Shown here piece after piece: positions 1 to 9,056 of a stretch of 56,151 nt of DNA. The notes beneath the pieces are model-generated. The model saw nothing but the letters and a program-made list of their open reading frames with translations, was not told the origin of the DNA and ran no database searches. The stretch is taken from positions 1 to 56,151 of the forward strand of contig DUMM01000011.1 in assembly GCA_012839845.1 (NCBI GenBank), written 5' to 3'. This DNA is from Bacillota bacterium (GTDB lineage: Bacteria; Bacillota; Limnochordia; DTU087). The position numbers and the translations under genes were made by a program. Every line of letters starts with the position of its first letter. Positions within the stretch are counted from its first letter, which is position 1.

Positions 1-126
1 CTCCTCCTTCGGCTTCCTTCAGACCCCACCGTTACCAGTGACGCCCTTGCCTACGGATTGTCTTCCCGCTAGTTAGGCGACAGGGTTTCTTTCAACCCAT
101 CGGCTCAGCAGACATGCTGGGCACAC
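1..126 (-). mobile_element. Group IIC-type intron, 5' end (partial, runs off the left edge)
   Basis: Read on the minus strand, position 126 begins GTGTGCCCAGCATG, the GUGYG-type 5' end of bacterial group II introns. A compact domain I-like sequence follows, including a GGGTT/AACCC hairpin (98-83) and, at 23-8, TCTGAAGGAAGCCGA, a motif I recall from introns of this class. The intron lies six bases after the yyaC terminator stem; group IIC introns are known to insert just downstream of terminator hairpins. The loop at 92-87 reads AAAGAA, the exact complement of the last six exon bases TTCTTT (132-127), as expected for an EBS1/IBS1 pair. The reverse transcriptase gene, domains V/VI and the 3' exon would lie to the left and are not visible. 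The class call rests on remembered consensus and context. Confidence 0.72.
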
Positions 127-158
127 AAAGAAGAACGGGCCTGGAAATGGGCCCGTTC
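127..158 (-). terminator. Rho-independent terminator of yyaC; intron insertion target
   Basis: A 9-bp perfect stem, GAACGGGCC (133-141) with GGCCCGTTC (150-158), has an 8-base loop. On the minus strand it is followed by TTCTTT. It sits 46 bases past the yyaC stop. The group II intron begins directly after TTCTTT, so the usual U-tract is cut short at the intron boundary. Confidence 0.8.
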
Positions 159-6201: not shown

Positions 6202-7557
6202 ATGGGTTATCCCTATTTGCCCTTGACTCCAGAGGAGCGGCGGAAAATGCTGTCAGACATCGGGGTGGAGTCAGTTGATGATCTGTTTGCAGATATTCCC
6301 CGGGAAATAAAGCTGCAGAAAAACCTCCATCTACCCCAGCCCTTGGCCGAGAGTGAACTGATCCGACATGTGCAGCAGCTAGGTGACCGAAATGTCTCAC
6401 TCGATACACATGTTTCATTCCTAGGAGCTGGGGTGTATCAGCACCTGGTCCCAAGGGCGGTACATCATTTGGCCAATCGGGCCGAATTCCTCACTGCCTA
6501 CACGCCTTATCAAGCAGAGATCAGTCAAGGGGTGTTGCAGGCCACCTTTGAGTATCAGACGTTGATCTGCAACCTGACGGGCATGGAGGTTGCCAATGCG
6601 TCCATGTATGATGGAGCGACTGCCCTGGCGGAAGCAGCGCTGATGGCCATGAACATCACGGGCAGCAGCAGGGTGGTTGCCCTTGAGAGCATACATCCAG
6701 ACTACCGAGAGGTGGTAGAGACCTATCTTAAGACCGTAGGGGCAGAACTGGTGGTACTGCCCACGGACACGGGGAGAGCGGATCTGAAAGACCTAAAGCC
6801 CTATGTGGGGAAAGATACAGCGGCTGTGTTGGTCCAACAGCCCAACTTCTTCGGCCTGCTGGAGCCGGTTGGCGAGATCGGTGCACTGCTGGAAGATGTT
6901 CCAACGCTGTTCGTTGTCTGTGCAAATCCCATCTCCCTGGGCATACTCCAACCCCCGGGTGCCTACGGTGCGGACATAGTGGTCGGTGACGGCCAGCCCC
7001 TAGGCAATCCGCCGGCCTTTGGCGGGCCGAGCTTCGGCTTCATGGCGGCAAAGGAGAAATACATCAGGAGGATGCCGGGAAGGATTGTGGGGGAAACCAG
7101 GGACGACGCCGGCAACCGAGGGTTTGTGCTTACCCTGCAGACGAGGGAGCAGCATATCCGCAGGCACAGGGCGACATCCAACATCTGTACCAATTCTGCC
7201 CATTCAGCGTTAATCGGCACCATTTATCTGGCCATGCTGGGAAGAAAGGGGCTCAGAGAAGTCGCTTCCCAATGCGTTCAGAAAGCCCATTACACTGCGG
7301 AGCTGATCACAGCTTTGCCTGGCTGGGAACTGCTTTTTGAAGGACCGTATTTCCACGAGTTTGCAGTCAGGGCTCCGGTGCATTGGTCTAAAGTCCAAGC
7401 CGCTCTCTTGGATGAAGAAATTATCGGAGGGCTTCCTTTGGCTGCGGTGTATCCCTACCGTTCGGAGTGGGAAAACGCCCTTCTTTTCTGTGTGACGGAA
7501 GCTAGAACCGTCAGCGAGATCCAGCACTTGGTTCAGGTGCTAGAGGAGGTAAAGTGA
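6202..7557 (+). CDS. gcvPA: Glycine dehydrogenase (decarboxylating) subunit 1
   Basis: This is the N-terminal half of the split P-protein (451 aa), the PLP enzyme that decarboxylates glycine and loads aminomethyl onto GcvH. Split PA/PB forms are standard in Bacillota and archaea. Family segments include [40 protein letters not shown] and the NICTNSAH block near the C-terminus. ATG 6202 follows AAGGAGCG. The stop (TGA 7555-7557) overlaps the start of gcvPB, indicating translational coupling of the two subunits of the alpha2-beta2 enzyme. Confidence 0.96.
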
Positions 7558-9056
7558 TGGCAGGCCGCGACAATTTCCCGCTGTTAATGGAACTCGGTGC
7601 CCCGGGACGCCGTGCATATCTGCTGCCGGAACTAGACGTGCCCGGGAAGTCATTGGAGGAACTAATCCCAGGTGAGTACCTGCGGTCGGAGCCAGCACTC
7701 CTGCCTGAGCTGAGTGAAGTGGAGGTTGTCCGGCATTTTGTCGGTTTATCCCGGCGGAATCACGGTGTGGATGTGGGTTTCTATCCCTTGGGTTCCTGTA
7801 CCATGAAGTACAACCCCAAGGTTAATGAGGACCTAGCATTGTACCCTGGGTTTGCCAGCCTGCATCCCTATCAGCCGCAGGAGACGGTGCAGGGGGCGCT
7901 CCAGCTGATGTATGAATTGGAGCATTACCTGTGTGAGATTGCCGGGTTGGCTAGGGCCACATTGGCGCCGGCGGCCGGTGCCCACGGCGAGCTGACAGGT
8001 TTGATGTTGATTAAGGCCTATCATGAAAGCCGGGGAGAAGGCTTTCGAGATGAGATCATAATTCCCGATTCCGCCCACGGTACCAATCCCGCCAGTGCCG
8101 CCATGTGCGGCTACAAAGTAGTGGAGGTGGCTTCCAACGAGCGGGGCAGTGTGTGCGTCGATGCCCTTAGAGAGGTAGTAGGCGCGAAGACAGCTGGTCT
8201 TATGCTGACTAACCCCAATACCCTTGGGTTGTTCGAAGAGGACATTCTGACCATCAGCCAAATAGTACACGAGGCAGGCGGACTGTTGTACTACGATGGG
8301 GCCAATGCCAATGCCATATTGGGCAAGTGCCGGCCGGGCGACATGGGTTTCGACGTGGTGCACTTCAATCTGCACAAGACGTTTTCCACCCCCCATGGGG
8401 GAGGAGGCCCTGGGTCAGGTCCCATTGCGGTGAAGGCGGATCTAGTACCTTTCCTACCTGTTCCGGTGGTGGAGAAGCGGGAAAACGCAGACGAGTTCTA
8501 TCTCGATTACAACCGGCCCCAATCCATAGGGAAAGTCAAGGGCTTTTACGGCAATTTCCTAGTAATGGTGCGAGCCTATGCTTACATTCGTTCCATGGGA
8601 CCGGAGGGTCTGCGGCAAGTTAGTGAAGATGCGGTACTGGCTGCCAATTACTTAATGGCTAAGTTGAAATCAGCATATGATCTTCCCTATGACCGCATCT
8701 GCAAACATGAATTCGTCCTTTCCGCTAAACGGCAAAAAGCCAACGGAGTAACAGCGAGAGATATTGCCAAACGGCTGCTGGATTACGGCATGCATGCGCC
8801 AACTGTGTACTTCCCCCTGATCGTGGAAGAGGCGCTGATGATTGAACCCACGGAGACAGAAACAAAGGCTTCCCTTGATGAGTTTATCGAGGTGATGCTG
8901 GAGATTGCCCGGGAGGCAGAAAGCTCTCCAGAGACCCTGAAGAAAGCTCCGCACAACACCGTAGTTGGGAGATTGGACGAAACCCTGGCGGCCCGACACC
9001 CGGTTGTGCGCTGGCAGGGGAGACAGGATACGGAGGATAAGACGCGGGATGAGTAG
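7557..9056 (+). CDS. gcvPB: Glycine dehydrogenase (decarboxylating) subunit 2
   Basis: The 499-aa product is the PLP-binding half of the P-protein. The cofactor lysine lies in the [17 protein letters not shown] motif, and [12 protein letters not shown] and [12 protein letters not shown] are typical. I start at ATG 7557, which shares its A with the gcvPA stop (TGATG) and follows AGGAGG at 7543; GTG 7554 is less well placed. The end overlaps the start of pheA (ATGAGTAG), an unusual coupling of glycine catabolism to phenylalanine synthesis. Confidence 0.96.

Follow-up and report, generated by a model that had tools for sequence, protein, structure and literature searches.

Head of a very probable full-length group IIC intron at the yyaC terminator in a genome of an uncultured Bacillota group

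Insertion after terminator hairpins is a known habit of group IIC introns, and the catalytic triad of their domain V is commonly AGC, with CGC present in some introns (PMC4424553). In the solved structure of the IIC intron from E. rectale, EBS1 lies at nt 184 to 188, in the loop of domain Id (PMC10190682). The window analyzed here, a stretch of 56,151 nucleotides, is contig C38 of a Bacillota genome. On its minus strand, positions 126 to 1 very probably form the 5′ end of a full-length, ∼2.1-kb group IIC intron that encodes a reverse transcriptase (RT) and reached the T-rich tail of the intrinsic yyaC terminator by retrotransposition. When set against GsI-IIC and the E. rectale intron, the element is alike in its insertion after a terminator hairpin, in the RT of its relatives, and in a short predicted EBS1 (nt ∼181); nothing notable differs, and the catalytic triad position in domain V reads AGC. 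Its target and fold, together with the protein class and exon pairing seen in relatives, match those of known IIC introns. The locus records the expansion of a IIC intron lineage within an uncultured group of Bacillota and offers a clear covariation test locating EBS1, and is otherwise ordinary mobile-element biology.

Intron relatives, intron head, and target site

Complete relatives of the intron were located by protein scan in Desulforamulus putei (L053), Thermotalea (L054), Thermoanaerobacterales 50_218 (L052), and Phaeodactylibacter (L057/L058). They span about 2.1 kb with both ends present, and their heads are about 81 to 92% identical over the aligned part. The family, the length, and the hairpin targets are shared, whereas EBS1/IBS1 and the hosts differ. 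L052 to L054 and L057 encode a TIGR04416 reverse transcriptase/maturase (E value, 1.7e−130), with the reading frame complete in L053 and L057. The nearest PDB entries to these proteins were the RTs of GsI-IIC (333 bits) and E. rectale IIC (283 bits), compared with 165 for LtrA and 162 for the maturase RT 6me0. In Pfam searches, RVT_1 and GIIM were the only domains found in the relatives' RT proteins, with no endonuclease domain. By database scores, and not by a tree, the RT of the relatives would be assigned to class C.

Within the window, the spore protease gene yyaC (DUF1256; TIGR02841 E value, 2.5e−56; PF06866 E value, 2.2e−52) occupies 205 to 924 of the minus strand and is the gene upstream of the terminator targeted by the intron. 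The terminator hairpin, which forms the target motif, lies at 133 to 158 on the same strand and comprises a 9-bp stem, GAACGGGCC (158 to 150) pairing with GGCCCGTTC (141 to 133), and an 8-nt loop (RNA fold, −17.9 kcal/mol; z, −5.6). It is followed by TTCTTT (132 to 127), the T-rich tail of the terminator, which on direct reading is the end of the 5′ exon and makes up IBS1 positions −6 to −1. Directly after it, the minus strand continues with GTGTGCCCAGCATG. The GUGYG 5′ end of group II introns is present there as GTGTG at 126, 6 nt past the stem, and the bases from 126 to 1 are the first 126 nt of the intron, the 5′ half of domain I, with the contig ending inside the element. The stem, the TTCTTT spacer, GTGTG, and an AAAGAA motif considered below were all found where the original prediction had placed them, and its siting of the intron at the yyaC terminator is borne out by the TIGR02841 match together with the 9-bp stem and 6-nt spacer.

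A family covariance model built from nine relatives, with the genome under study left out, matched window positions 1 to 126 with 145.5 bits (E value, 3.7e−38), including the fold of domain I, and had no other match within the window at E values up to 1. The Rfam covariance search that had been proposed as a check did not itself detect the intron: with the stock library (gathering threshold; E values up to 10), nothing in the window rose above threshold, and the best match, group-II-D1D4-3 (E value, 0.44), was subthreshold, began at window position 41, and ran off the contig end. It was the family-specific model that matched, and this match, together with the identical head at five other contig ends, puts the intron head far beyond chance and upholds the assignment to group IIC.

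A strong hairpin was identified near the junction in 44 of the 47 distinct 5′ exons; the corresponding fractions were 7.7% for exons after shuffling and 7.3% for stretches drawn at random from the window. In the proposed mechanism, the intron ribonucleoprotein would read the terminator hairpin by its shape, the short IBS1 would be recognized through pairing with EBS1 in the terminal loop of domain Id, and reverse splicing would then occur past the T-rich stretch. The yyaC copy is presumably mobile and able to splice. Its remainder falls within the assembly gap, and contig C98 starts with its 3′ end.

Intron copies, the assembly break, and the partner contig

The left edge of the window is a contig end, and six contigs of the assembly end in the intron head (C38, C126, C9, C130, C10, and C29). 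The 126 bases of C38 are identical to the other five ends over the part held by each contig, and each of those five heads lies directly after a hairpin and a T-rich stretch. The intron tail, comprising domains V and VI, stands at the ends of another six contigs (C35, C61, C64, C96, C98, and C101). Domain V on C98 and the five others exceeded the cutoff of RF00029 (42.7 to 45.7 bits), and in the fold of domain VI an A bulges out at −7 from the intron 3′ end. The six heads and six tails arise because the assembler cannot separate at least six nearly identical copies, and the window starts at position 1 because the contig breaks inside this multicopy intron. In practical terms, the window edge is an assembly break caused by a multicopy element and no chromosomal boundary. 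Terminators in this genome are occupied by a minimum of six full-length copies as well as several decayed stubs, with diverged or decayed copies on C86, C71, C42, and C31.

The middle of the yyaC copy, including the RT and EBS1, is absent from the assembly of this genome. What remains of the RT there is a C-terminal end on C101 and a decayed RVT_1 fragment on C31, the latter being the sole RVT_1 match across the genome. The missing middle was also sought in congeners, the order, and the class, where contigs likewise break or the copies are decayed. The RT and domain V that the original prediction expected to the left of the window were recovered in part: domain V is present on the partner contig C98 and the RT is complete in relatives, but the genome's own assembly holds only the C-terminal end of the RT.

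C98 was recognized as the tail of the yyaC copy because of synteny with four congeners (G001 to G004) that lack the insertion. In these genomes, the sequence past yyaC matches, among the six tails, only the 3′ exon of C98 (E values, 1e−50 to 1e−129). The joined flanks of C38 and C98 align to the four empty sites with no duplication, and the hairpin is kept at the empty site in all four. After the tail, C98 carries UPF0180, larC, parB, parA, a second parB-like gene (noc), rsmG, and mnmG, all oriented towards yyaC. A parAB/noc/rsmG/mnmG cluster marks oriC by the usual gene order of Firmicutes, and its presence beside the intron insertion supports the earlier guess that the site is oriC proximal.

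EBS1/IBS1 pairing and alternative explanations

EBS1 was sought in 20 aligned introns with domain I complete up to the Id loop. At each of about 230 columns, pairing with the copy's own IBS1 was compared with pairing after IBS1 had been shuffled among copies (1,000 permutations). A single column stood out, at intron nt ∼181 (z, 6.4 to 7.5 for 4- to 6-mers; 0 of 1,000 permutations), and the variable 6-nt block at nt ∼181 to 186 follows unusual IBS1 sequences such as GCAATC, TTGGCG, and GTTCGC. By this covariation in relatives, the true EBS1 is located at intron nt ∼181 to 186, outside the window; that of the yyaC copy falls in the assembly gap. EBS1-IBS1 pairing was poor in L033, L053, and L084, which may be decayed or imprecise insertions. 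At IBS1 position −1, the yyaC copy carries T and the other five full-length copies of its genome carry G; were a single EBS1 common to all copies, one or more IBS1-EBS1 mismatches would be likely here. Judged by those five copies, EBS1 would read CAAGAA or CAAAAA, which leaves one mismatch with TTCTTT.

The original prediction had instead assigned EBS1 to AAAGAA at 92 to 87 of the minus strand (intron nt 35 to 40), whose 6 nt are, within the window, the exact complement of TTCTTT. At exact register this loop reached permutation rank 24 of 1,000 (z, 2.6), but it was one among about 230 columns tested and is nearly invariant, with no credible tracking of IBS1; it ignores the very IBS1 changes that the block at nt 181 follows, and the solved IIC intron has its EBS1 in domain Id at nt 184 to 188 (PMC10190682). 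The match is without weight because the loop is rich in A and hardly varies, and the terminator tail facing it is rich in T. In AAAGAA, the final A (nt 40) is part of the closing base pair, outside the loop, and the stem of the surrounding GGGTTGAAAGAAACCC hairpin (83 to 98, minus strand; intron nt 29 to 44) contains a compensated pair at columns 33/42 (UA in five, CG in four). This element is a conserved structural hairpin, and there is next to no probability that AAAGAA functions as EBS1 or as an additional site for exon binding. The yyaC copy is also very unlikely to be a decayed or internally deleted stub in place of a full-length intron. The order has many decayed copies, among them 5′ stubs of 26 to 125 nt and internally deleted introns such as L042 (283 nt, both ends present) and L034 (98 nt), but the assembler would have read through a stub that was short and unique. 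The break in C38 instead comes 126 nt into a stretch shared without difference by five other copies, which a full repeat predicts, and C98 starts with an intact 125-nt tail like those of other full copies.

For a full-length intron at this site, altered formation of yyaC 3′ ends had been raised as a question, and the retained terminator argues against it. The insertion leaves the yyaC stem and the first six T-rich bases unchanged, with sequence change only further downstream; in the predicted fold, the 9-bp stem persists both with and without the intron. With these parts kept, the 3′ ends of yyaC are expected to change little and termination should still occur, which would probably leave the intron almost without consequence for its host gene. 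A measurable influence on 3′-end formation at yyaC or at the convergent UPF0180/larC/parB genes could draw on the T-rich tail now running into GUGUG, formerly CUGUG, and on the convergent genes now lying behind an antisense intron of ∼2 kb, but with the terminator unaltered in this way we consider it very improbable. A bidirectional terminator for the convergent gene is likewise not evident and was dropped as a candidate because the other strand has no T-run past the stem. It is exceedingly unlikely that the oriC-proximal insertion changes yyaC-UPF0180/larC/par transcription in a way kept by the host, for example, through antisense or read-through RNA.

Spread, terminal stubs, and neighboring genes

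Matches to the intron were carried by 30 of the 73 genomes of the class. One head (L082; G018:C32:43329-43449), in a genome from another family of the same class, shares 100% identity with window positions 1 to 126 over 121 nt, where the comparison stops, and this identity suggests recent horizontal spread. A search of viral contigs with an exact 54-nt pattern gave no match, and the plasmid collection gave only partial matches (78 to 82%).

Several stubs located at terminators consist of intron ends only: L042:1291-1574 (283 nt), L034 (98 nt), L124 (about 74 nt), and L009 (27 nt). In L124 (G002:C59:315-388), a 31-nt head is joined directly to a 43-nt tail. These end-only stubs seem more likely to have decayed independently than to represent a mobile miniature form.

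On the partner contig, the larC reading frame (L132:531-1388, G000:C98) covers only profile positions 1 to 235 of 375. The spacing between larC and UPF0180 appears to be several hundred bases longer in G004, G002, and G007 than in the genome studied here and in G001. Beside the complete mnmG on C98, a second frame resembles the C-terminal part of MnmG (the two adjoining frames being L132:5222-7123 and 7128-7943); it is a paralogue in tandem or else a broken copy.
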